Shown here: in pieces, positions 735 through 29,594 of the stretch
Layout: the number at the start of each line of letters is the position of its first letter
How positions within the stretch are numbered: the first letter of the stretch is position 1
Made by a program: the position numbers and the translations under genes
From: a virus
Length of the DNA stretch: 34,692 bases
IMG/VR virus record: IMGVR_UViG_3300010379_000024
Span: 1-34,692 of that record
Strand: one strand, 5' to 3'
Notes under the pieces: generated by a model
Databases searched by the model: none
What the model was told of the DNA's origin: nothing
Seen by the model: only the letters and a program-made list of their open reading frames with translations

Positions 735-1898
735 ATGGAATTGTGGCGATTGATGCATCTCGACCCCGAGTCTGAACCTGGCATGGGTGGAGAAATCCAC
801 GGCGAGGAAGACTCAGACTTCCAAGTCTCCGCAGACGACCGACCCGACTTCAACGGCGGGTCAGACTCCCCGGACGTGAGCAATGTCGCAGCCGCCGCTG
901 CTGCCCCAGCTCGCCCGGCCGATCCAAACCAGCGTGTTTCTCACTCCGCCCCCGCCCAGTCGGCCGAAGAGTGGACCTCGATCCGCGACGCCGCCAAGCA
1001 GGCTGGCTTTGACTTCGGCCATGGCGTGGATGACGACGCCGCGGCCATGAAGCTTCTGCTCCAGCGGGCCCAAGCCAGCAAACAGCAGAGCATGTACGAA
1101 CAGCTCGGCCGTCAGCTCGCCCCCCGAGCCGAGGAACTTCAGCGGTTCCTCCAGGGTGGCCAGGCCGCTGCTGCCCCGCAAGCTGCTCCAACACGCAAGC
1201 CATGGGAAGCCCCCGAGTTCGACCGCCGCTGGGCGTCGCTCGTGGAACGCGATCCCAACACTGGGCTGTTCTTCGCCAAGCAGGGTACCCCGCCCGAGAT
1301 CGCCCAGAAGGTCAATGCCTACGTGGAATGGAAGGACCGCTTCGACTCGAACCCAGCCTCCGTGCTGAACGAGATGGTACAGGCCCAGGCCCAAGAAATC
1401 GCCGCTAAGACCTTCGAATCTCAGTTCGCTGAGCATCAGCGGAAGTACGAGATTAGCCGCATCGTGCAGGACAACCGGAGCTGGATGTACCAGCAGGACC
1501 CTAACGGCCAGGTTGCTCGTGATTTCGATGGCCAGCCGGTTATGACTCCGCACGGTTCGCGCTATGTTTACCACGTCCAGAACCTCGTGCGTGCTGGCGT
1601 GACCGACCCATCGGCCCAGGACCGCCTCGCCAAAGAACTGGTCCGCGGCGAATGGACCACACAGTGGTATCAGAGTCAGCAGTCCCAGCAGGCAGCCGCC
1701 GAGCCGAGGCAGCGCGCTACCAGCATGGGTCAGCCAACCAACCCGGCCCAGACCAGGCCGCCGTCGACGCGCAGGGCCCGGAACATCCCCGAACCCACCA
1801 CCACTGGAATGTCATTGCAGGAAGCACTGGCACGAGCTTTCAAGGAAGAGAACATCACCGAGGAAGACATCCGTCGTTCCGTCAACAACGGCGACTGA
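735..1898 (+). CDS. Putative capsid scaffolding/assembly protein
   Basis: The 387-residue product is hydrophilic and rich in Ala, Gln, Asp and Glu. The N-terminal 75 residues are acidic and low in complexity. The middle (about 80-230) looks helical with Ala/Gln-rich stretches, and the C-terminal tail (about 325-387) is basic and Pro-rich, ending in a short charged helix (EENITEEDIRRS). This composition and the position two genes before the major capsid protein fit a scaffold, which is usually a helical protein with a charged C-terminal capsid-binding end. No enzyme motif is visible. GAGGTAGAT lies 6-7 bases before the ATG. The function is inferred from composition and order, not from a recognised family. 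Confidence 0.55.
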   Translation: MELWRLMHLDPESEPGMGGEIHGEEDSDFQVSADDRPDFNGGSDSPDVSNVAAAAAAPARPADPNQRVSHSAPAQSAEEWTSIRDAAKQAGFDFGHGVDDDAAAMKLLLQRAQASKQQSMYEQLGRQLAPRAEELQRFLQGGQAAAAPQAAPTRKPWEAPEFDRRWASLVERDPNTGLFFAKQGTPPEIAQKVNAYVEWKDRFDSNPASVLNEMVQAQAQEIAAKTFESQFAEHQRKYEISRIVQDNRSWMYQQDPNGQVARDFDGQPVMTPHGSRYVYHVQNLVRAGVTDPSAQDRLAKELVRGEWTTQWYQSQQSQQAAAEPRQRATSMGQPTNPAQTRPPSTRRARNIPEPTTTGMSLQEALARAFKEENITEEDIRRSVNNGD

Positions 1899-1929: not shown

Positions 1930-2529
1930 ATGAGCACACGCTATAAGGGCAGTATGCACGAATGGCTCGCTATGAACCCGGAAAAGGCCGCAGCCTTTAA
2001 GGCGGCCTGCGAGGAGTGGACCAAGGCTGACCAGTCGTGGTCGCGGTGGACCGCCATCAAGGAGTTCGTCGCCGGACGCATCCTGATCCCGTTCTTCGAG
2101 ACAATCGGGGCCCACGGCATGGCGTACAAGCTCGGTGGATTCCACAACTCCCGCAGCAAGCCGGCCTATCTTTGCAGTAGGTGGCGTACATTCGGCAGCA
2201 TCCTCGGTGCACCCGCCCGGGGAGCCCGTCTCCTAAAGAGGTGGGCGTTAGCGCTAATCAAGCTTCGCAAGCCCCGTGAGCCCTGGGAGAAGATTGTCCA
2301 GCAGGCGATCCAGGCGTACATCCGCTCCCAGGAAGTCAAGATCGTCCGCAACGCAAAGATCCTGGCCATGCTCAAAGAGCAGGCCGAGCTGGGCACCCAT
2401 GTTGAAATGCCTGGGCTGGATCATGACACGGCGGAATCACTAAACAGCGACCTACAGTACTTTGGGCAGCTTGTTGTGAAGCCGTCCAAGACGCAAATTG
2501 ACTACTCGGACCCCATGTACGACGAGTAA
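1930..2529 (+). CDS. Capsid-associated protein carrying a second copy of the capsid N-arm
   Basis: The 199-residue product lies between the scaffold-like protein and the major capsid protein. Residues 119-149 align without gaps to residues 5-35 of the capsid protein at 2716-3846. Sixteen of 31 positions are identical, including W, IV, Y.R, EV.I, RN.K and LA.LK. The first 118 residues are unrelated to the capsid protein and are basic with hydrophobic stretches (about 45-65 and 80-115). The last 45 residues are acidic. A strong terminator follows directly, separating its transcript from that of the capsid gene. It may bind the same partner as the capsid N-arm, for example the scaffold. I do not recognise a family. 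GAAGTGATAC precedes the ATG. Confidence 0.7.
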   Translation: MSTRYKGSMHEWLAMNPEKAAAFKAACEEWTKADQSWSRWTAIKEFVAGRILIPFFETIGAHGMAYKLGGFHNSRSKPAYLCSRWRTFGSILGAPARGARLLKRWALALIKLRKPREPWEKIVQQAIQAYIRSQEVKIVRNAKILAMLKEQAELGTHVEMPGLDHDTAESLNSDLQYFGQLVVKPSKTQIDYSDPMYDE

Positions 2530-2567
2530 CCTGAAGAGCGATCCAGCGATAAAAATTTGAATTCATG

Positions 2568-2600
2568 AAAATACCCGCGCACAAACGCGGGTATTTTTGT
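2568..2600 (+). terminator. Rho-independent terminator
   Basis: Stem ATACCCGCG (2571-2579) with CGCGGGTAT (2586-2594), loop CACAAA, extended by A-T pairs and followed by TTTTG. It lies between the gene ending at 2529 and the capsid gene. Confidence 0.9.
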
Positions 2601-2617
2601 TAGATATCAGATAGACG

Positions 2618-2634
2618 ATCGATTACATATCGAT
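2618..2634. repeat. ATCGAT repeat in capsid-gene leader
   Basis: ATCGAT at 2618-2623 and 2629-2634, separated by TACAT. Because ATCGAT is itself palindromic, this is both a direct and an inverted repeat. It lies after the terminator and about 80 bp before the capsid start, where a separate promoter or leader element would be expected. Confidence 0.4.
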
Positions 2635-2715
2635 TGATGGATACACCAGCTTCGGATGGGCGTGCCGGACGAAGCAGGGACGCTTGGTCCGTTTACAACA
2701 TCAAAGGGGTTCTGC

Positions 2716-3846
2716 ATGGGCGCAGCCTGGAGCCGGATCGTCAACTCGACGATCAAAAACTACGTGCGGGATCGCGAAGTGAACATTCTTCGCAACCGCA
2801 AGTTGCTTGCCCTTCTGAAGAACAAAGACCGCATCACCTTCAACTGGAGCGGCCGTAGCCTCAACTGGCGCGTGAAGTACAAGCGGGTTCGCATGACTCC
2901 CTACGCGGACGGCGACACCCAAGAGTTCTCGCGGAAAGACCGCAACAAGACCGCCAACCTCAATTGGCGTGGCTACGCTGCTACCGACTCGATGACCAAG
3001 GGCGAGTTCTTGATGAACCGCTCGACCGAGGCCATCATCCGGCTGTACAGCGAAATCGCCACCGACCTGTCCGACGACATGGAAGAGGCTTTTGGCGAGG
3101 AAATGTACATCAATGGATACGCTCCTGGCAACAGTAAGCGCATCCATGGCATCGAGTCCTTCATGGGCGCTACCGTCCTGCAGGGCAACGGTGCTGGCAC
3201 GCCGACCTCGACCTACGCCGGCTTGAGCTGCGTTCCCGGTGCCTACAACGGCCAGTGGGACAGCGGAAACCTGCCTGCTTGGCCGAATGGTAGGGGTGAT
3301 GCACAGTATGATTACTGGTCCCCTATAGTCGTAGACTATGGCGACACCCTATTTAACCCAGGTACCGCAACTTCCGGCACGACCACAACCGGCACGTGGG
3401 CAGTGGGTTGCGTCGAGGCGATTTCCTTCGGCATCATTAAGAGCAAGAAGAGCAAGTCCAGCCGAGGCCACCTCGACCTGATCATGGTCGACGACGAGAT
3501 GTACCGCACCTACCTCGCCCTCATGCGGACCAAGGAGCGTATCCTGGTCGAGCGGAGTGCCGAGAAGTCCCCACTGATCGCCCTCGGGTTCTCCGATGTG
3601 ATCAACCAGGACGGCGTGGACATCACGACTGAGTTCGGTATCCCCAACGGCGTTGGATATGGTTTCAACGTTGATATGATGGAGCTTCGGAGCCAGCAGG
3701 CGCAGATCTTTGTTCCGGAAGGTCCTGACCAGGACATCGCCAGCAAGTCGTGGCGGTTCTCGGTCGACTTCTTCGGCAACATGACCTTCAACCCCAAGTT
3801 CCAGATCAAGTTCGCCAACCTCAGCAACGTCTCGGACGCTGTCTGA
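2716..3846 (+). CDS. Major capsid protein (HK97-fold candidate)
   Basis: The 376-residue product follows a scaffold-like gene and precedes a decoration-like gene, the standard place for the major capsid protein. The N-terminus (5-35) is an amphipathic charged arm. A long segment (about 50-140) with alternating strands and charged helices resembles the E-loop and spine-helix region of HK97-type capsid proteins. The C-terminal half contains a run ending in helical ISFGIIKSKKSK and a beta-rich tail. No catalytic motif is present. The start at 2716 is preceded by AAGGGG at 6 bases; the frame is open further upstream but lacks a ribosome site there. It has its own leader after a terminator, as expected for a highly expressed gene. 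The assignment rests on order, size and composition. Confidence 0.75.
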   Translation: MGAAWSRIVNSTIKNYVRDREVNILRNRKLLALLKNKDRITFNWSGRSLNWRVKYKRVRMTPYADGDTQEFSRKDRNKTANLNWRGYAATDSMTKGEFLMNRSTEAIIRLYSEIATDLSDDMEEAFGEEMYINGYAPGNSKRIHGIESFMGATVLQGNGAGTPTSTYAGLSCVPGAYNGQWDSGNLPAWPNGRGDAQYDYWSPIVVDYGDTLFNPGTATSGTTTTGTWAVGCVEAISFGIIKSKKSKSSRGHLDLIMVDDEMYRTYLALMRTKERILVERSAEKSPLIALGFSDVINQDGVDITTEFGIPNGVGYGFNVDMMELRSQQAQIFVPEGPDQDIASKSWRFSVDFFGNMTFNPKFQIKFANLSNVSDAV

Positions 3847-3863
3847 TCTAACAGGGATGTGAG

Positions 3864-3907
3864 ACCGGGGGTGGTCAGGGAAGACTTTGTAAGCCCCCGG
3901 TTTATTT
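3864..3907 (+). terminator. Hairpin terminator after capsid gene
   Basis: ACCGGGGG (3864-3871) pairs with CCCCCGGT (3894-3901) around a 22-base loop, followed by TTATTT. The stem is strong but the T-run is interrupted, so termination may be partial. Confidence 0.7.
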
Positions 3908-3929
3908 GTACGGAGTTCTACCCCAAGCC

Positions 3930-4118
3930 ATGCCCTACAAGATTTCCAAGTCTGGTTCAGGCTTCAAGGTTACTACTCCGAATCATCCACAGGGTTTTTC
4001 CAAGCATCCCCAAACAGAGAAGCAAGCCGCGATCCAGAAATGGATCATTGAGAAGCGTACAGGCGAAACAGACAGTGGCGCGAAGATAGGTATTCGTCGC
4101 GATCAAAAGACCAAGTAA
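3930..4118 (+). CDS. Small MPYKI-type phage protein
   Basis: The 62-residue basic protein begins MPYKISKSGSGFKV and continues with a Lys/Gln-rich helix (TEKQAAIQKWIIEKR). It resembles the many tiny phage proteins that begin MPYKI and have a short beta-hairpin followed by a charged helix; their function is unknown. The ribosome site is weak (CGGAG about 14 bases upstream). An in-frame TTG at 3906 is an alternative start. It lies between the capsid protein and the decoration-like protein. Confidence 0.65.
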   Translation: MPYKISKSGSGFKVTTPNHPQGFSKHPQTEKQAAIQKWIIEKRTGETDSGAKIGIRRDQKTK

Positions 4119-4131
4119 GGATTTATGACCA

Positions 4132-4845
4132 ATGGGACGTTTTGATTCTCCTCCTTTCGGTCGTGGCGAAGGCTACTACAACGACGCCACGCGAGCCCTG
4201 AAGGACCTTGTTGCGAACACCGGGAACCCGACCCAACTGGGCGGGACCAACCTGGAGGGCAAAGAGTACACCTTCGAGCCCAATTCGCAAGACTACGAGC
4301 AGGGCATTTACTCGGCCACTGCGATCGCCTCGCAGGACCCGAACGGCCGCCCGGTCCACTGCAAAGTGCTCCGGAACCGGACCAACGTCAACCTGCTGCC
4401 CGGTCGACTGATTCACTTCGACGAGTCTGGCCAGGGCAACAACGGCACCTACTACAACTCGAGCTACGCCCTCAAGAACGAGACCGGCACTGACGGCTAC
4501 TGCTATCAGCTTTCGGATCGTCCCGCCGGGATCGTAGACGAGTTCCTTCCTCCCGCTGGCGTCGCCCCGAACGAGCTGTTCTGGTGTGTGATCGACGGCC
4601 CGTCCGTCTTCACCCAGGGTGCGACGACTGCCGCGACCTTCACGCAGGGACTCGCCGTTGTGCCGGCCGTGTTCGGTTCTAGCCGGACCGACACCCTGGG
4701 TGGCCGCGTCGCCCTTCAGGTCCTCACCGGTGCCACCACTCCGCTGGCCCAGAATCTCCTCAACGCGGTTGGCGTCTGCGAGACAGCCAACAGCACCGCC
4801 GGCCAGACCTTCTCCGGCGTTGTGAAGCGGTTCAGCAAGTCTTGA
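4132..4845 (+). CDS. Putative capsid decoration/head protein
   Basis: The 237-residue product is rich in Gly, Thr, Asn and Ala with short beta-strand-like stretches, and no catalytic motif or membrane segment is visible. The N-terminus (FGRGEGYYNDATRALKD) and the segment LLPGRLIHFDESG look like a virion beta-barrel protein. Phages often encode a capsid-stabilising decoration protein directly after the major capsid gene, which is the main reason for the call. AAGGA lies 10 bases before the ATG. A UUCG-tetraloop terminator follows the gene. Confidence 0.5.
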   Translation: MGRFDSPPFGRGEGYYNDATRALKDLVANTGNPTQLGGTNLEGKEYTFEPNSQDYEQGIYSATAIASQDPNGRPVHCKVLRNRTNVNLLPGRLIHFDESGQGNNGTYYNSSYALKNETGTDGYCYQLSDRPAGIVDEFLPPAGVAPNELFWCVIDGPSVFTQGATTAATFTQGLAVVPAVFGSSRTDTLGGRVALQVLTGATTPLAQNLLNAVGVCETANSTAGQTFSGVVKRFSKS

Positions 4846-4925: not shown

Positions 4926-4951
4926 ACTCCTATCTCCGTTTGGAGCCATCG

Positions 4952-6088
4952 ATGAACGACCCGCGCAACACGCTCGTCCCTATTCCTCATGGCGGGGGGC
5001 TTCATAACGTCCACCGTCCCATCCATAACATCCCGGCCGTACTCGACGTCGTTGCCGTGATCAGTAATCCAGTCAGATTCAAGATCCGGTACAGCCTGTA
5101 TCGGGCTTTCGAGAGGCACATGGCCAATTCCGGCGTGCGTCTCACCACGGTCGAGCTAGCCCATGGCGATCGACCCTTTGAAATCACCCACGAAGACAAC
5201 CCCCGTCACGTCCAGCTCCGTACAAACAGCGAATTGTGGCACAAAGAGAACTTAGTGAACCTCGGAGTCCAGCGATTGCCGGCCGATTGGCAGTATGTCG
5301 CTTGGATTGATGCCGATGTGACCTTTTCTCGGCCGGATTGGGCCCAAGAGACCCTCCACCAGCTCCAACACCACCCCGTAGTGCAGCTTTTCAGCCAAAT
5401 CATCGAGCTGGGACCCAATCACGAGCCCTATGACTCCGAAAAAGGGCTAGTTCAGCAGTCATTCGCCTCCTGCTACCGCCGCGCACTCGACTCTGGCTAC
5501 CTGGAGTCGGCCGTTTGGCCGTGCTACGGTGCCCGGAAGCAGGCCCCGGCGTCCCCCGATACCGCCCAGCCAGCCCCTCACAGCGTGTACTCGCTCTCTC
5601 CGCTGGCCGCCGCGGCCGGCAAGACCCCGCCGACCACAACGGAGTACTGGCACACCGGCTACGCGTGGGCCATGACCCGCGAGGCGTTCGAGGGCGTGGG
5701 CGGCCTGATCGAAAAGGCCATCCTGGGAGCCGCCGATCACCACATGGCGTGGGCCATGATCGGGTATGGCCTTCCTAGTGTCCACGGCAACGCTACAGCG
5801 GCCTACCATGACATGGTGATGCACTGGCAGTCCCTCGCCGACGAGCACGTGCGGGGCAACGTGGGCTGCGTGGACGGCCTTATCATCCACCACTTCCATG
5901 GGCCGAAGGCATGCCGGAGGTATGTGGGGAGATGGGACGTCATCGTCAACAACCACTACGATCCAAACGTGGATCTAAAGAAGGATTGGCAGGGTCTTGT
6001 AGCGCTGACTGGCCGCAACCCCGGGCTGCGTGACGGGATCATGGCCTACTTCCGCGGGCGAGACGAAGACAGTACCTCGATCAAATAA
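4952..6088 (+). CDS. GT-A-type glycosyltransferase
   Basis: The 378-residue product has a DxD motif (W-I-D120-A-D122) after a hydrophobic strand, the metal- and nucleotide-sugar-binding site of GT-A glycosyltransferases. The N-terminal part (about 30-120) looks like a Rossmann-type nucleotide-binding half. The segment EYWHTGYAWAMTREAFEGVGGL, followed by a run containing ADHHMAWAM, matches the acceptor half in which a conserved acidic/His motif follows a Trp-rich strand. A Pro/Ala-rich insert lies at about 200-225. Its place in the virion block suggests it may glycosylate a virion protein, though DNA or host glycans remain possible. GGAG lies 6 bases before the ATG at 4952. Confidence 0.75.
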   Translation: MNDPRNTLVPIPHGGGLHNVHRPIHNIPAVLDVVAVISNPVRFKIRYSLYRAFERHMANSGVRLTTVELAHGDRPFEITHEDNPRHVQLRTNSELWHKENLVNLGVQRLPADWQYVAWIDADVTFSRPDWAQETLHQLQHHPVVQLFSQIIELGPNHEPYDSEKGLVQQSFASCYRRALDSGYLESAVWPCYGARKQAPASPDTAQPAPHSVYSLSPLAAAAGKTPPTTTEYWHTGYAWAMTREAFEGVGGLIEKAILGAADHHMAWAMIGYGLPSVHGNATAAYHDMVMHWQSLADEHVRGNVGCVDGLIIHHFHGPKACRRYVGRWDVIVNNHYDPNVDLKKDWQGLVALTGRNPGLRDGIMAYFRGRDEDSTSIK

Positions 6089-7387: not shown

Positions 7388-8950
7388 TCAGGAGTGATTA
7401 ATGCTGAATTGCAACTGGCCGGCCGGAGACCCTAAGAATGTCGAACTTGCGAAAGTCAATTCAAGTTGCGAAGACGAGATGTAAATCCCGTAGCCAGGGG
7501 CGAGAATGAGATTGGTGTAGGAGTCGCCGCTGTAGTGCCCTGTGGTGTACTGTGCCGTGCAGCTTACTAGAGAACCATTAGAGACAACTCCCTGGACATT
7601 CAGGTTTCCTTGATATCCATTGAGAGTAACTGTATAGTTAACACTGAAGGAATACGTTGTGCCATCATCAACAACAAAGGACCCACCGCTAATCGACCCT
7701 TGGGCCTTAGTAGTTCCATTTAGCACGGTCTCAAAAGATCCACCTGTAATGGATGGCGAAGTTGCCTGGTAGGCACCAATATCATATGGGCCAACTGACG
7801 GCCGAGCAACACCAAGAAAATCAGTGGTTGGCATATCAGTGCTGGTGCCGACGCCAATACACGAAGTGCCGGCGGAAAGCTGATAATTGCCAGTGCCATC
7901 TGATTTATAGTTCACGAACATTGGATTGCCGGTAACTGTTCCTGACACAGTACCGTATGGTGCAACGATATCACCATATGAATCCGCAATGGTGCCATCA
8001 GTGTTGCCGTAGACACAATTGTTGAGATACTGGTTGTGGGAACCAAAGACTCCCCCGTCGCCAGGATCTGTGTCTTCGTATATGCCATTCCCACCGTTGT
8101 TGGCACAGATGTTATTTGCTATAACATCGTAATCTTCTGGGCCGACGTTGTCGCCGCCAATCCAGATGCCGCCGTTGCCGTTGCCGAGACAGGTATTGTC
8201 AACGATGGTTTCGTTGGTGGAGTAGTAACCATCGGTGATGCCGATGGACATATTGCCAACGCAGACATTGTTGCTGATCACGTCATAAGGCAGCTCTGCA
8301 TAGATGCCGTGCCAGAGATTTCCACCCCCTGGCGTGCCGATTCTCGTGCAGTAATTGCCAGAGATGAGGTTGTGACCAGCAACTGGGGTTTCCGTGTATT
8401 CGGCAATTCCGCCCAAACCACCTGAGGTTAGGTTGTTTGGAAGGGCGATGTCATGAACGTAATTGTTTATGAACTGGCAATGCGAACCGCCCATATCCAA
8501 AATGCCACACCATACATCTTCGTTGGCGCCATTGCCACTGATGTCGAATCCGTTGATGATGTTGTAATCACCAGAATTCGTCCAGACATCCTGCTGATTG
8601 TCGTTGTCATTCCCGGGGTTGTACAGTTGTGCTCCCCATTTGGTTTGCGACTCAAAAGTGATTGGCGCTGCGGCGGTGCCAGATGTTGTTGTGCTTATGC
8701 CGGTGTACGACACCGTGTACTTGCCCGGTTCAACGATGACGGTGTCGCCAGGCTTCACAGTATTGGCGGCCTGCTGAATAGTAGCCCATGGCGCCTGGGA
8801 CGTGCCACCGTTTGAGTCTTTGCCGGTAGTTGCAACGTAGTACGTGCTCATCAACAGCTTGCCCTCAAGGGCTTCGAGAATTGGCCTCCGAGCACGCGGC
8901 TTGCGTCGTACATCCTGAAACAAAGTGCGAATTCGATCAACGATGGTCAT
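7388..8950 (-). CDS. Secreted LEPR-XLL-type parallel beta-helix protein
   Basis: The 520-residue product starts with a basic segment and then LEALEGKLLMS (25-35), which matches the LEPR-XLL-type N-terminal motif of planctomycete exported proteins. Residues about 37-400 carry the repeated Asn/Gly-rich strands of a right-handed parallel beta-helix (NIINGFDISGNGA, NYVHDI, ISNNVC, IVDNTC, IANNIC, YLNNCVYGN), as in pectate-lyase-like and choice-of-anchor Q proteins. The last 120 residues are a Ser/Thr/Gly-rich beta domain. AAGGAG lies 6 bases before the ATG at 8950. Its codons are visibly more AT-rich than those of its neighbours, which suggests recent acquisition, probably from the host. It could be a surface glycan-binding or glycan-cleaving protein, or a lysogenic-conversion gene. 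Confidence 0.85.
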   Translation of the reverse strand: MTIVDRIRTLFQDVRRKPRARRPILEALEGKLLMSTYYVATTGKDSNGGTSQAPWATIQQAANTVKPGDTVIVEPGKYTVSYTGISTTTSGTAAAPITFESQTKWGAQLYNPGNDNDNQQDVWTNSGDYNIINGFDISGNGANEDVWCGILDMGGSHCQFINNYVHDIALPNNLTSGGLGGIAEYTETPVAGHNLISGNYCTRIGTPGGGNLWHGIYAELPYDVISNNVCVGNMSIGITDGYYSTNETIVDNTCLGNGNGGIWIGGDNVGPEDYDVIANNICANNGGNGIYEDTDPGDGGVFGSHNQYLNNCVYGNTDGTIADSYGDIVAPYGTVSGTVTGNPMFVNYKSDGTGNYQLSAGTSCIGVGTSTDMPTTDFLGVARPSVGPYDIGAYQATSPSITGGSFETVLNGTTKAQGSISGGSFVVDDGTTYSFSVNYTVTLNGYQGNLNVQGVVSNGSLVSCTAQYTTGHYSGDSYTNLILAPGYGIYISSSQLELTFASSTFLGSPAGQLQFSINHS

Positions 8951-8966
8951 GTAAAACTCCTTCGTG

Positions 8967-9200
8967 TTAGTGACTAGAGTTGCGGGCAACGTTAGATGCA
9001 ATCTGTCCGTAAAAGAACTCCCATCCCTTCATGTTACCGGAGGTGGTATCTGCCGGCGGGGGTCCGCCGAACGCCTTGGCCCCGTCTTGGGTGATGTCGG
9101 GGTCTCGCGCCGCGATGCACGCCTTGCACGGCGCGACCTGCCCTTGGTGCTTCCGGCACCCATGCAGCCAGCTCCAGTGGGGAGCGTCAAATCCAGGCAT
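8967..9200 (-). CDS. Small Cys/His protein
   Basis: The 77-residue product has a possible metal-binding cluster near the N-terminus (H.C..H......C..C in the segment WLHGCRKHQGQVAPCKAC). Similar short Cys/His proteins are common in phages and have no known role. It ends 16 bp before the LEPR protein and begins 4 bp after the stop of the gene at 9204, so it fits tightly in the operon. GGGGGTGAT precedes the ATG. Confidence 0.6.
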   Translation of the reverse strand: MPGFDAPHWSWLHGCRKHQGQVAPCKACIAARDPDITQDGAKAFGGPPPADTTSGNMKGWEFFYGQIASNVARNSSH

Positions 9201-22157: not shown

Positions 22158-23141
22158 CTACTTCATAGATACCACGAAATGCTCTCCACACCAGTCGAGT
22201 GCTTCGAGCCAAGAATTGAAAACTCCAAGGGCCACGCCAATGTCAAGCAAGCTCATGGTGACCCCCGTGGAGTGGTCGTTAAGGACACCGCTCTCAACAT
22301 GGAAGGACCCACTCGGAGTCCGTGAGCGGCCCCTCAACTCCCGACCCGGAACGAAGACTGGCAACCACCCAGTCGATGTCTCCAGGGTCACAAAATCCAG
22401 GCCCCAGCTCTTGACCAGGCTCACCTTGTCGGGAATACTTCTTAGCACCGAGTTTCGTTCGTACTTGATTGATCGCCCAGCAGATGCGATCACAGATGCC
22501 GTGCCAACGCTGGCGGTCACCGGTTCTTTCGAACTCAAGGTAGATAGCCGGGGGGATTCCAATAGCCACGTCGGCGCTACCTCTGGTAGCTCCACTCTCT
22601 CCGGGGAATCTAGTCCCACGTATTCGTAGTGTTTTCCACTGCGGGGATGTAGACTCGGGGGAGCCACCACCAGTGATTTGTCCCCCAAGATTTTGATCTC
22701 TTCGTGAGTACTCCAGCCTCCCGTCCCAGATGCCCCCCAGGTATCCCATAATCCCCAGATCATACCTGTCCGGACTGACTGCGTCCCGGACGGCACGCGA
22801 AAATAGAAATGGAGACCACCACCGCCGGTCCGAACACTCCACGATGGAGAACTCAACCACTGGTGAAACGCGCACATTTTCTGCCATGTAGCTATCGCCC
22901 TCTCGCCATCGCAGTCGACCACGATGATCTTGATCGGTGTCGGAGACAGGACTCCGGTGACAAGTTGTATGTTTGGTGCAAACCACTGGTCGTACACCCA
23001 CTCTGGCACTGCCTCGAGATTGTAGGCACCGCGGTAAGCTGAGAGCTGGGGTGCTTTGGCGTCACCGCGTGACGGCAGCGGACAAAGCCCCAACTCTCTG
23101 TACCTGGCCACCCACCGCTTTGTGGAGTCGGCGTCATCCAT
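22158..23141 (-). CDS. Prim-pol-type primase/polymerase
   Basis: The 327-residue product has the archaeo-eukaryotic primase (bifunctional primase/polymerase N-terminal) motifs: VVDCD (74-78) for metal binding, SVRTGGGGLHFYFRVP (102-117), and EIKILGD.SLVVAPPSLHPRSGKHYEYV (148-175), including the conserved His and strand. The last 90 residues (from about 240) are a separate alpha/beta region that may be a primase C-terminal domain. It would start DNA synthesis at the phage origin. ATG at 23141 lies 4 bases after the previous stop; the ribosome site is weak, so coupling is likely. Confidence 0.8.
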   Translation of the reverse strand: MDDADSTKRWVARYRELGLCPLPSRGDAKAPQLSAYRGAYNLEAVPEWVYDQWFAPNIQLVTGVLSPTPIKIIVVDCDGERAIATWQKMCAFHQWLSSPSWSVRTGGGGLHFYFRVPSGTQSVRTGMIWGLWDTWGASGTGGWSTHEEIKILGDKSLVVAPPSLHPRSGKHYEYVGLDSPERVELPEVAPTWLLESPRLSTLSSKEPVTASVGTASVIASAGRSIKYERNSVLRSIPDKVSLVKSWGLDFVTLETSTGWLPVFVPGRELRGRSRTPSGSFHVESGVLNDHSTGVTMSLLDIGVALGVFNSWLEALDWCGEHFVVSMK

Positions 23142-23145
23142 TCGA

Positions 23146-23523
23146 TCAATACCGACCCTTGGGCCTTGCGGACGCGGCGACCGCAACAGCAGTCTCCATG
23201 TCAGACTTCACCTGGGGATGACCAAGGAAAGTAGTGAGCGCTGCGACCATCGGCGGCCATTGGTCGCCCTCGCGAGTGCTCAGCCAGTGAAGGTAGGTCA
23301 GACCAACCTGCAGGCCGTTCTCCTCGACTGAGGCAATCTCATTCAGAGACAATCCCTTGTATTTGCCGAAGTTAAGCTTGAAGCCCTTCCGGTAATCGAA
23401 CAACTCCTCGGGTGTCATGTTCGAGGTGTCAACCGGGGGCTTTGGCTCCCGGACTGGCCGGCTCTGTGCAGCCGCCTTGTTTCCGTAGGTCGTAGCCGAA
23501 GGAGCACTGTCGTAATAGCTCAC
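23146..23523 (-). CDS. Small protein with FGKYKG domain (ExoX C-terminal/DUF3820 type)
   Basis: The 125-residue product has a disordered N-terminus and then KLNFGKYKGLSLNEIA...GLTYLHWLS, which matches the small F.FGK.KG...I....YL.WL domain found alone in phages and at the end of exonuclease X-like proteins. It probably aids DNA binding. GTG start at 23523 with GGAG 8 bases upstream. It lies between the Rad52-like and primase genes. Confidence 0.75.
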   Translation of the reverse strand: MSYYDSAPSATTYGNKAAAQSRPVREPKPPVDTSNMTPEELFDYRKGFKLNFGKYKGLSLNEIASVEENGLQVGLTYLHWLSTREGDQWPPMVAALTTFLGHPQVKSDMETAVAVAASARPKGRY

Positions 23524-23644
23524 TCTTACATCTCCATCTCAATGAAAACTGGTTGAACCTGAAACTCTGCTAGTGTGTCAAACGGAAGGTCGCTGGGGCG
23601 GCATGCCAAGACTGACAAATCCCGTGCATCCCGTCCCCAGTAAG

Positions 23645-25027
23645 TCAGAAAGGGCTGGTAGCTGCTTCCTCGGTTGCCATGTTGCTGCGGGCGTGCGAGA
23701 TCTGCTCATCCAGGAACTTCTGGATATTGCCAAGCCACACACTGTCTGCAAGGCCGTGCAGGCGGTCTGGGACCTCGCCGGTGACTCCCGCGCAGTTCTT
23801 GCACTGCGGGGCGACCTCCTGGAACAACTCCTTGACCTGGTCGGCGGTTGAATCCGCGCCGGTCTGATACTTGATCAGCGCCTCCATTGAGGTCACGATC
23901 TTCTTGCGAACGTCAGCCAGATTGACCCCGGTGGTGGAAGGGGCGGTCGGCTGTGGGGTCGGCTTGTCGGAGTGCTCGGAGACGGCGGAAGCTAGATGGT
24001 CAAACTCGCCGTTGTACTTCGGCGACTTGATCAAGTGACACACTACACTCAGGCAGATGTCCTCGAGCTGAGCCGGGGTCCAGTCGGCCATCCCGCGGGG
24101 ATACCCCTTGTCGATGGCTTCCTTGGTCATGCCCTGCACGAGCCGCTGGTCAAAGATGCCTTCCATCCGCTTGGCCCAATTGAAGACACTCCGGGCGTCG
24201 CGGGGCAGGTTAATCGGGCTGGCGGCTGGCTTGCCGCCGGGGCCCAGGGCTGCTGCGTGGGCCGCTTGGGCGGCTTTTGCCTGCTCTTCACCCTTTACCG
24301 GACCTGCCGGCTTGATGGTTCCTCCAGGAACCACTGGGTCGGGGGTTACGGGAACATCGCGTGGACGTGTCTCGAGTACATTGACGACATCGCTGACCTG
24401 CAGGGGTCTGGGCAAATTGCCCGCGGCGACGTGCTCTTTAATCGCGGTCTTTACTCGGGACTCTGGGCTGAAGTCGACGACTATTCCATGCTCGTTGACA
24501 TCATGACGGATCGGGGTGACGATCCTGACGGGAGTCCGCTCGAGCGGCCTGTTGTCCAGGTTGAGCCAGAGAGGAGTGCCTTTCTTGTACAAATATCGCC
24601 CTATGCCCCACGAATCCTGAGCAGCTCTTCTGAGGGAGTTCGTGAATAAACTCTTGGCCGAATTGTCGTCGTCGCGGATCAGCTCACCGCCGGACTTCTT
24701 GACCATGTCCTCTTTGCCACCGCCGTCTTCCTTGGTCAGCCAGTGCCAGCCGTTTCCGAGGATCGCCGGCTGTTTGGCTTCTGGGCCAGGAACTAGGATG
24801 GACAAGGCACAGACCATAACCCCGCCGTCGCCAACCGAGTAGGTGGGATACCAGCCTGTCGGGCCGCACACCGTGTCGAGCCGATTCTCAATGGCACGCT
24901 TGTCCAAATATGTGAGCACGCTGGTTCCGCGGCCAGGAACTTCTGATAGCTCGTGGGGGTGGAACGGAGCCCACAGGGCGTTCCAAAACGCCAACTGCAA
25001 ATCCGTCAGCTCAAGCACATAGCTCAT
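23645..25027 (-). CDS. Rad52/22-like single-strand annealing protein
   Basis: The 460-residue product has the Rad52/22 pattern at about 20-157: YLDKRAIENRLDTVCGPTGW, VMVCALSILV, KSGGE....DDNSAKSLFTNSLRRAAQDSWGIGRYLYKKGTPLWLNL. The NSAK/RRAA.. .GIGRYLY segment is the most characteristic. It anneals complementary strands during recombination and concatemer formation. The C-terminal 300 residues contain a Pro/Ala-rich linker and a helical region with a CKNC pair, not part of the core. The ATG at 25027 is preceded by AGAGAGAG only. It is the first gene of the leftward block, about 44 bp after a promoter. Repeat copy 6 lies inside. Confidence 0.85.
   Translation of the reverse strand: MSYVLELTDLQLAFWNALWAPFHPHELSEVPGRGTSVLTYLDKRAIENRLDTVCGPTGWYPTYSVGDGGVMVCALSILVPGPEAKQPAILGNGWHWLTKEDGGGKEDMVKKSGGELIRDDDNSAKSLFTNSLRRAAQDSWGIGRYLYKKGTPLWLNLDNRPLERTPVRIVTPIRHDVNEHGIVVDFSPESRVKTAIKEHVAAGNLPRPLQVSDVVNVLETRPRDVPVTPDPVVPGGTIKPAGPVKGEEQAKAAQAAHAAALGPGGKPAASPINLPRDARSVFNWAKRMEGIFDQRLVQGMTKEAIDKGYPRGMADWTPAQLEDICLSVVCHLIKSPKYNGEFDHLASAVSEHSDKPTPQPTAPSTTGVNLADVRKKIVTSMEALIKYQTGADSTADQVKELFQEVAPQCKNCAGVTGEVPDRLHGLADSVWLGNIQKFLDEQISHARSNMATEEAATSPF
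24410..24422. repeat. Dispersed near-palindrome, copy 6
   Basis: GGGCAAATTGCCC inside the Rad52-like gene, encoding GNLP. Confidence 0.8.
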
Positions 25028-25067
25028 GAAGGTTTCTCTCTCTTGGGTCTCTGGCGAACGACACATT

Positions 25068-25080
25068 AGAATCTTAGCAA
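25068..25080 (-). promoter_or_regulatory. Leftward promoter of the replication block
   Basis: Read leftwards, TTGCTAAGATTCT contains TGCTAAGAT, an extended -10, about 44 bp before the start at 25027. It resembles the rightward TTTGCTATAATTC elements. No clear -35 box. Confidence 0.5.
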
Positions 25081-25263
25081 ACCAAAATGTGGCCGTTCTG
25101 TCGTGCTCTCGTCCCAAAGAATATCGGCAAACCAACCGTCCTATAACCTACGCCCGAAAAAGAATTTGGATGGTTGGTGGTACCGTTCACTCCGGATATA
25201 TTCTGTCACAGGGTAGCAATCAGACGTTCACCATCACCGTCCGAAGGTTCCTTAGTCATTGAG

Positions 25264-26293: not shown

Positions 26294-26752
26294 ATGGCTT
26301 CACGTGCAGCAACTAACGCCAAAGCGAAGATGAAAGCCGCGGCCGGCGAAAGCAAGCTGCAGGGTGCCCTCAAGTCGGCGCTGTCGGATCGAGATAACTC
26401 GGTCGACATCGGCGGTTTTCTTGCGGATCTGATCGAGATCTGGGGCGGCCCCCGCCGCCTGGCAGAAGACATGCACCGGGAGTTCCAGGAAGCCGCTGTG
26501 GGCGGCATGACGCGGCAGCGCATCCTGGAGCAGATCGGTCGGTACATCACCTATGCCACGGATCGCCAAATCACCAAGACGGTCAAGCCATCGGAGATGA
26601 GCGACGCCGAACTTGAAGAGCTGGCGATGACCTACATGCAGAAGCTGAATGGTGGAGCGCCAGGCAATTTGCCCAGCGACCCTCTACCAGACCCCACTCG
26701 CAAGGATGCGACAGATGGCGGGCAGGAAGCACACCAGGCAGAAAGCCGCTGA
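26294..26752 (+). CDS. Putative terminase small subunit
   Basis: The 152-residue product is mostly helical with a basic N-terminus. The core DIGGFLADLIEIWGGPRRLAEDMHREF and MTRQRILEQIGRYIT, followed by EMSDAELEELA, resembles proteins commonly encoded directly before large terminases. The C-terminal tail is Pro/Asp-rich. AGGAGG lies 8 bases before the ATG. It overlaps the large terminase gene by 38 bp. It would recognise the packaging site and recruit TerL. The call rests mainly on position. Repeat copy 8 lies in its tail. Confidence 0.55.
   Translation: MASRAATNAKAKMKAAAGESKLQGALKSALSDRDNSVDIGGFLADLIEIWGGPRRLAEDMHREFQEAAVGGMTRQRILEQIGRYITYATDRQITKTVKPSEMSDAELEELAMTYMQKLNGGAPGNLPSDPLPDPTRKDATDGGQEAHQAESR
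26662..26674. repeat. Dispersed near-palindrome, copy 8
   Basis: AGGCAATTTGCCC inside the gene before TerL, encoding GNLP. Confidence 0.8.
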
Positions 26753-28601
26753 CAACCAGCCAATCGAACCGTTAGCCGACCCGACTCCCAAGCGGCGCTC
26801 AGGCAAGCGGTACATGACCGGCGGTCCGACTCCCATCTTGTCCCCCGAGATGTATGAGCGGATTGCGACACCGCCGGTTGAAGAGGAGGTTATCCCAGAC
26901 ATCGCGTCTGAGATGCCTCCTCCCCCTCCTCTGGACAATACTCGCCTGACAGACGCCCAGGCCGAGGAGTTCCGGTCAATCCTGTTCGAGGTCTACGCCA
27001 GACGCAATGAGGCGTTGAGGCTGTTCGACCCACTGGAGGAGCAGGAGCGCGGATTCGCGTCCCATGCGTCTGAGCGGATCGCCATCGGTGGAAACCGAGG
27101 GGGGAAGACCACGTTCACTGTGGTCGAGATCGCTCGCGCGGTCACGAACCAGGACCCCTACAACAAGTACCCCGCCGAGGGCGGTAAGTGCATCCTGGTA
27201 GGCCAGGACCTGACGCATTGCAGCAAGGTGTTCTACGCCAAGCTGTTCAAGCCGGGCGCGTTCAAGATCATCAGGGACCTCCAGACTGGCAAGTGGCGGA
27301 CCTACAGACCAAATGATCCGTCCGACGCCTTGCGCATCAACGAAGTGCGCAAGGCCCCACCTCTGATACCATCCCGCTTCTACAACTACGACCAGATTAG
27401 CTGGGAAGACAAGAAAGCCGAGATTCCAAAGTCGATTCCACTGTCGACCGGCTGGACCCTCTACTTTTTCAGTGGCCTGGCTGCTCCGCCCCAAGGGTGG
27501 AATGTTGAGATTGTCGTGTTCGACGAGGAAATCACTCACGAGCAGTGGTATCCGGAGATGTCGGCCCGGTTGCTCGACGACACGAACATCGATCCGCTGA
27601 CCGGTCGGCAGAAGGGTGGCAAGTTCCTTTGGTCAGCCACTCCACAGGCCGGCACACAGCAGCTCTACGATCTCAAGATCCGCGCGGACGACGACGCAGA
27701 GATTGGCAGAACGGACGACATCCAGCTCTTCCAGTTCGGCATGCTCGACAACCAGTTCGTCGGCGACAGGGCCAAGCAGCAATTCATCCAGAAGTTCGCA
27801 CATCGAGAGGACGAGATAGCCGTCCGAGTCCACGGAGAGTTCGCCCTGCTGGGCACCCGGGTCTACCCCGAGTTCGCCCCGAAGGGCGTCCATGGCATCG
27901 AGCCGTTCCCGATCCCGCACGACTGGACCCGCTACACGATCACCGACCCTGGACGGAACGTGTGCGCCACGCTGTTCTTCGCCGTCCCGCCGAAAAACCA
28001 CCCAATGAATGGACGCATCGTCATCTACGACGAGCTGTACATCCGCCGGTGCGACGCCAAGACCTTCGCGGAGCAGTTCGTGGCCAGGTGCCGCGGTGAC
28101 GTGATCGAGGCTGGCATCATCGACCATCGCGCCGGCCAGATCCATGACATGGGATCAGGCGCCACAGTTGAAAATCAGTACACGCGAGAACTAAAGAAGT
28201 TGGGCTTCAGGTTCGCGCACGGGAGCTGTGCTTTTCGGTGGGGCTCTGACGATGTCAAGGCCGGAATCGAAGCAGTGCATAATGCATTGCACATCAATGC
28301 TGATGGTTTCAGCGAATTCGTGTTCATGAAGGACAAGCTCAAGAATCTCTGCGGGGAAATGATGAAGTATTGCTATCGTCGTTTGCCGTCAGGGGTTGTG
28401 ACCGACGAGCCGATCAAGCAGAACGACCACGGGGTCGACGACCTGCGGTATGCGGCCCTCGCCAAGTTGGTTTGGAAGAAGCAGCGCAAAGCGAAACCAC
28501 AGAAGGGGTACACGATTCTGGCTATGGAAGCCAAGAAAGAAAGAGCCCGCCAGAAGAATATCAGCAAGAATCCTTTCGGTGCATCGATTTTGGTTGGGTA
28601 A
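26715..28601 (+). CDS. terL: Terminase large subunit
   Basis: The 628-residue product has an ATPase domain with Walker A GGNRGGKT (125-132), Walker B VEIVVFDEE (264-272) and coupling motif SAT (306-308). The nuclease domain follows, with acidic residues D410 (TITDPGRN), D469 (IIDHRAGQ) and D574/D575 (HGVDDLRYAA). This is the standard two-domain motor that translocates DNA into the capsid and cuts it. The first 75 residues are basic and Pro-rich. AAGG lies about 9-10 bases before the ATG at 26715. The frame is open further upstream without a ribosome site. Confidence 0.95.
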   Translation: MAGRKHTRQKAADNQPIEPLADPTPKRRSGKRYMTGGPTPILSPEMYERIATPPVEEEVIPDIASEMPPPPPLDNTRLTDAQAEEFRSILFEVYARRNEALRLFDPLEEQERGFASHASERIAIGGNRGGKTTFTVVEIARAVTNQDPYNKYPAEGGKCILVGQDLTHCSKVFYAKLFKPGAFKIIRDLQTGKWRTYRPNDPSDALRINEVRKAPPLIPSRFYNYDQISWEDKKAEIPKSIPLSTGWTLYFFSGLAAPPQGWNVEIVVFDEEITHEQWYPEMSARLLDDTNIDPLTGRQKGGKFLWSATPQAGTQQLYDLKIRADDDAEIGRTDDIQLFQFGMLDNQFVGDRAKQQFIQKFAHREDEIAVRVHGEFALLGTRVYPEFAPKGVHGIEPFPIPHDWTRYTITDPGRNVCATLFFAVPPKNHPMNGRIVIYDELYIRRCDAKTFAEQFVARCRGDVIEAGIIDHRAGQIHDMGSGATVENQYTRELKKLGFRFAHGSCAFRWGSDDVKAGIEAVHNALHINADGFSEFVFMKDKLKNLCGEMMKYCYRRLPSGVVTDEPIKQNDHGVDDLRYAALAKLVWKKQRKAKPQKGYTILAMEAKKERARQKNISKNPFGASILVG

Positions 28602-29427: not shown

Positions 29428-29594
29428 AGCAGTGCTACACATGTGGATACAGCGAGGTTCCCTACATCCTGATTGCTGTGGACACTCGCTATCTGTGTCC
29501 CAACTGTCGGGCTGAAAATCTCTGGCTGGATTCACTGTTGGAAGGACCCGCACGCAATGAGCACATTTGTAAATTACTCAGATCAAGAGATTGA
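29355..29594 (+). CDS. Small zinc-ribbon protein
   Basis: The 79-residue product contains QCYTCGYSEVPYILIAVDTRYLCPNCRAENLW, a CxxC...CxxC zinc ribbon. GGAGG lies 7 bases before the GTG start at 29355, giving a 73-bp out-of-frame overlap with the previous gene; no later start codon precedes the ribbon. It overlaps the portal gene by 38 bp. Function unknown. Confidence 0.6.
   Translation: MGLHSGIEATKGAGSGISDTQRKVKQCYTCGYSEVPYILIAVDTRYLCPNCRAENLWLDSLLEGPARNEHICKLLRSRD

Follow-up and report, generated by a model that had tools for sequence, protein, structure and literature searches.

In phage T4, the capsid targeting sequence (CTS) is a conserved tag by which diverse internal proteins join the scaffolding core and so reach the head (PMC3012670). 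The SaPI1 protein CpmB shares an RIIK motif and a helix, the coat-binding end, with the scaffold of 80alpha, in which the scaffold C-terminal helix contacts mainly the N-arm helix of the CP (PMC5644958). The C-terminus of gp8 similarly binds the N-arm of gp5 by charge pairs in P22 (PMC9965877), and the SPP1 scaffold binds the N-terminal helix of the major capsid protein (MCP) (PMC6813328). Capsid-protein sequence is also present in Ccm of SaPIbov5, which is homologous to the capsid protein of phi12 and has a part in assembly (PMC8569155). Here we describe a locus in which a homologue of the coat N-arm lies within an otherwise unrelated protein, U, encoded between the MCP and a scaffolding-protein candidate, S.

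The window, by which we mean the whole stretch of DNA analysed, is the 34,692-base virus record IMGVR_UViG_3300010379_000024 in IMG/VR, and its features are collected in Table 1. The virus probably infects planctomycete bacteria. The N-terminal part of the DUF1565 protein contains RPILEALEGKLLMS, which resembles the LExLExRxLLS signal of planctomycete surface proteins and fits such a host. From the place of its gene, protein D is a possible head decoration protein.

Table 1. Positions of features in the window
Feature	Position	Strand	Basis or remark
S, scaffolding-protein candidate, 387 aa, net acidic, C-terminal amphipathic helix-like segment (SLQEALARAFKEENITEEDI)	735..1898	+	place and make-up
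U, orphan protein with arm copy, 199 aa	1930..2529	+	ORF, charges, codon-position GC
Front part of U, residues 1-116, Trp/aromatic-rich, basic	1930..2277	+	without known relatives
Arm copy in U, residues 117-154 (profile match 117-151)	2278..2391	+	BLASTP and profiles
Acidic C-terminal tail of U, residues 155-199	2392..2526	+	net charge -7
Intrinsic terminator-like hairpin between U and MCP, 13 bp stem and T-run	2567..2598	+	folding
Major capsid protein (MCP), predicted HK97 fold, 376 aa	2716..3846	+	PHROG 9953, AlphaFold, PDB match
N-arm of MCP, residues 5-37	2728..2826	+	model helices 4-27, 29-36
Small conserved protein, 62 aa, after MCP	3930..4118	+	53% identical relative, same place in L002
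Conserved protein D, 237 aa	4132..4845	+	relatives in L002 and L003, downstream of MCP, at 36-41% identity
382 aa protein, directly behind head genes	4940-6088		sub-threshold glycosyl transferase family 2 match, E=0.0039
537 aa protein with DUF1565 (E=3.9e-5)	7388-9001	-	
Replication block: helicase, ParB-like protein, primase-polymerase, weak Rad52-like protein	19115-25135	-	
Large terminase	26649-28601		
676 aa protein where the portal usually lies; no family match	29473-31503		

The start of the MCP was placed at 2716 (MGAAWSR...) and not at 2656, where the longest ORF begins, because the numbering of the arm as residues 5-35 in a preliminary description of this DNA fits the later start and the MCPs of relatives begin at the same place. 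The protein belongs to PHROG 9953, major head protein (E=6.5e-19). Its AlphaFold model, made with 36 aligned relatives (pLDDT 81, pTM 0.78), has a best Foldseek E-value of 2e-9, with many phage capsids below 1e-6, and the best PDB match is the cyanophage A-1(L) capsid (7f38, Z 18.9, rmsd 4.3 over 293 residues). The predicted structure, with N-arm, E-loop, spine helix and P and A domains, and the sequence family agree that this is an HK97-fold major capsid protein. The segment common to U and the MCP corresponds to the first two helices of the model (residues 4-27 and 29-36), and the similarity ends where the E-loop region begins; the long helix 104-131 comes after the N-arm. As predicted by the model, the shared segment is therefore the capsid N-arm, as had been claimed. 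All 20 relatives carry one N-arm per record, in the MCP.

The preliminary description had reported an ungapped alignment of U residues 119-149 to MCP residues 5-35 with 16 of 31 identities, which we reproduced, and which BLASTP extends to U119-154 and MCP 5-40 (E=4e-9 in a single-pair comparison); the homologous stretch as a whole pairs U 117-154 with MCP 3-40. Amphipathic Lys/Arg/Leu-rich helices often look alike, but the similarity far exceeds that of shuffled sequences. The Smith-Waterman score of U against the MCP is 91, whereas shuffling U gives 31.7 +/- 4.7, with 91 reached in none of 2000 shuffles, and shuffles of the arm only reach at most 48 in 20000; even when the hydrophobic/polar pattern is kept, the maximum is 64 and all 20000 trials fall short. 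Profile searches, suggested earlier as a check, also found the similarity significant. A profile of the MCP N-terminus from 20 relatives, with the window MCP excluded, matches U 117-151 (E=5e-7 for a search space of 40000 proteins), and the full-length 21-row MCP profile, run against all six frames of the window, finds only the MCP (2716-3822) and the U arm (2278-2388, E=2.4e-7). Against 8626 six-frame ORFs of 52 loci, the N-terminus profile matched the MCPs and U and nothing else, and with U as the query the best matches in the records of relatives are their MCP arms (E 1.6e-7 to 2.9e-4). With independent profiles at E about 1e-7 to 5e-7, chance helix resemblance is extremely improbable and was ruled out by the shuffles and profile tests together. 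We regard the homology of the U arm to the MCP N-arm as settled. Of the residues that hardly vary among MCP arms, the U arm retains I13, R26 and A32 of the MCP and has Ala at the T12 and R28 positions; it carries a lower net charge (+2) than MCP residues 1-40 of the window and close relatives (+7 to +10).

The arm had been described as duplicated, and this holds in the sense of a homologous copy; a fresh copy of this phage's own MCP, however, is not supported. The U arm scores 105 against the MCP of a relative, L030, and 91 against that of the window, and in the arm tree U falls outside the window-MCP clade (100/94 support). A recent tandem duplication of the end of the window MCP gene finds no support in the 58% DNA identity of the two arms and the better L030 score, although AU tests, on 38 columns and with a long U branch, do not reject trees in which U is forced together with the window MCP or its clade (p 0.12 and 0.15). 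The higher L030 score and the tree position suggest either that the U arm is an old copy or that it was taken from another MCP lineage. Synonymous divergence of the arm pair is near saturation (pS 0.68 versus pN 0.37) and the protein signal is still clear at 48% identity, which fits selection keeping the arm, with the constraint on the MCP itself contributing to this signal. In L030 (2986-3717; L092), the MCP ORF nearest to U in arm sequence ends after 243 aa, the result of either a sequencing error or a frameshift in the record.

Outside the arm, U shows no similarity to the MCP, S or anything searched, in agreement with the earlier statement that the rest of the two proteins is unrelated. 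The similarity to the MCP ends at or before the start of the acidic tail. U consists of a front part (residues 1-116) that is strongly basic (+13 over residues 1-114), the arm and the tail. No relatives of U were found in IMG/VR (two pattern sets), INPHARED, Pfam, PHROGs or the PDB except for MCP arms, and none in genomes from the surroundings of Singulisphaera (45 of its family, 392 of its phylum), in which every remaining match is either an MCP arm or a weak stretch interrupted by stops. Patterns from residues 1-116 alone likewise matched nothing in IMG/VR, and this part has no match in Pfam or the PDB. U and S share no scaffold coat-binding segment, their score being 32 against 33.8 +/- 5.0 for shuffles. 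Read-through of U into the MCP was considered and rejected: the frame is shared, but stops intervene at 2527 (TAA), 2566 (TGA) and 2635 (TGA).

These features bear on whether U could be a minor capsid protein, with its arm inserted in the lattice like the MCP arm and the rest decorating or lining particular capsid positions. N-arms make inter-capsomere contacts in the mature SPP1 capsid (PMC6813328), and the U arm is flanked on both sides by other sequence. However, an MCP arm sits at the N-terminus and passes between subunits; threading would be hard for the U copy, which lies inside the protein (117-151), and U is without an E-loop, P or A domain, the full MCP profile matching only MCP positions 3-39 in it. 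Since everything past the arm is missing, U is not a capsid paralogue of the Ccm or T4 gp24 kind, and we consider a place for it in the capsid lattice quite improbable.

To place U in its genomic context, 52 MCP loci were surveyed; several records are near-duplicates, so the independent lineages are fewer than 52, and in a few S is missing from the sequence covered or cut off. In nearly all of them S lies upstream of the MCP, as a rule immediately. The gap between the two is 12-260 bases with no gene in between, except in the window, in L003 (identical to L021, the prophage of Singulisphaera sp. GP187), where the junction holds a 146 aa ORF (4383-4823), and in L088, where it holds ORFs of 61 and 96 aa (3475-3660 and 3664-3954). 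The 146 aa ORF is unrelated to U (score 28, shuffles 29.8) and has no significant arm-like match, and the window is the sole surveyed locus with a second arm, located between S and the MCP. With its inserts in the window, L003/L021 and L088, the S-MCP junction thus takes in unrelated genes and is an entry place for accessory ones. S itself has no Pfam or PHROG match and is a scaffolding-protein candidate by its place and make-up. The net charge is negative in 18 of 18 S proteins examined and the C-terminal block is alike in close relatives; the C-terminal segment is amphipathic and acidic in the close clade, but the tail is neutral or basic in some relatives, which limits any argument from charge to that clade.

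A junction that accepts unrelated inserts, together with the occurrence of U in one record only and the lack of relatives for the rest of the protein, is also what would be expected if illegitimate recombination had carried a piece of an MCP gene into or next to an unrelated small ORF, giving a chance chimera that is functionless or unrelated to the capsid. A functionless insert is, however, expected to decay, whereas the 199-codon frame of U is intact, its GC by codon position (0.57/0.44/0.77) resembles that of neighbour genes, and the arm has kept its protein identity with synonymous sites near saturation. Such a chimera is, in our view, distinctly unlikely.

A terminator had been proposed between U and the MCP gene, as a means of lowering the amount of U relative to the MCP or of separating their control. 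A hairpin is indeed present at 2567-2598 (GAAAATACCCGCG-CACAAA-CGCGGGTATTTTT, -18.6 kcal/mol), with a 13 bp stem ending in a T-run, and the whole U-MCP interval folds at z=-5.0; a consensus terminator scanner missed this hairpin, since the stem takes up the T-run. The idea of a control device specific to U did not hold up and was dropped, because L003 and L004, both without U, also have a T-run hairpin in front of the MCP gene, and L020, likewise lacking U, has one whose tail is weaker. In this clade the terminator thus belongs to the junction of S and the MCP gene, which it separates. U starts 31 bases behind S and before the terminator, and from this position is most simply read as co-transcribed with S; a search of 1800-2800 for a sigma-70-like promoter gave none. 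Separately, a near-identical stretch (TTGGGCCATAACTAGGCCCCA or close forms) lies just before the MCP start in L003 (about 4945-5000), L004 (about 4965-5000) and L020 (about 2800-2843). It is an imperfect inverted repeat that follows the terminator, was not seen in the window, and could be a promoter or leader element.

We tentatively favour, at nearly an even chance, the reading that U is an accessory protein inserted at the S-MCP junction and directed to the head during assembly by its copy of the arm. The preliminary description had suggested a scaffold partner, an assembly timer or a minor capsid component. By analogy, 'scaffold partner / minor capsid component' is a reasonable designation, since the C-terminus of the scaffold is what coat N-arms bind in 80alpha, P22 and SPP1. 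Given this binding, together with the acidic tail of S and the basic MCP arms in the close clade, the simplest use of the U arm would be to bind S and hence to enter the procapsid. The arm in U would fold as the same amphipathic helices as the MCP N-arm and would bind the procapsid partner of that arm, for which the C-terminal helix of S (or the P domain of the capsid, on its inner face) is the likeliest candidate. U molecules may then enter the procapsid in modest number, their basic front part toward the lumen and possibly contacting DNA, and U transcribed together with S would be at hand during procapsid formation. As a guess, the basic front and acidic tail would suit a DNA-facing internal protein. 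The Ala residues at the T12 and R28 positions and the lower net charge of the U arm are points against an address function.

Alternatively, U may be an assembly regulator, whose arm competes for the scaffold C-terminus or a groove of the neighbouring subunit and thereby slows or times assembly or sets head size. The same anatomy would serve this role, U would be made with S and ahead of the MCP, and competing scaffold-like proteins set capsid size in SaPI1 (PMC5644958). However, all relatives assemble without such a protein, and the large basic front and acidic tail would be superfluous for a simple competitor; regulation of this kind is therefore unlikely.

The reading of U as a protein addressed by its arm can be carried a step further, with greater doubt although it is a possibility worth stating: the coat N-arm may have been turned into a detachable address tag, so that the scaffold takes an unrelated arm-bearing protein into the procapsid as it would a coat subunit. 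If so, the N-arm alone would be a sufficient address, U would provide a natural probe for the procapsid surface to which the arm binds, and a means of loading HK97-fold shells with cargo would be suggested. The locus also marks the junction between scaffold and MCP genes as an entry point for accessory genes.

How does U compare with the known systems? Within the PHROG 9953 family with an upstream scaffold candidate, which includes the Singulisphaera sp. GP187 prophage and relatives in IMG/VR, the S-MCP pair of the window is an ordinary member, but no surveyed member other than the window has an arm-bearing protein between the two. Ccm, like U, is a second protein with capsid-protein sequence, but it has the complete HK97 capsid fold and assembles into pentamers, whereas U has the arm only. 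The T4 CTS resembles the U arm in being a short segment common to otherwise different proteins, and in U the segment is shared with a head-assembly protein, the MCP. However, the U segment is internal and homologous to the coat N-arm and not to the T4 CTS, packaging of U is putative, and the segment does not recur on several cargo proteins, as the window has it in the MCP and U only and the relatives have one arm per record. In the case of CpmB, two otherwise different proteins likewise have a common short helical element for capsid interaction, but there the shared element is the coat-binding end of the scaffold, whereas in U it is the arm of the coat, the opposite side of the interface, and CpmB is encoded by a satellite (SaPI1) while U is encoded by the phage. 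The known short head-steering segments examined here are scaffold-side or dedicated tags, from which reuse of a coat N-arm would differ. We infer by analogy that U would work most like the T4 CTS proteins and CpmB, while being a member of neither group.
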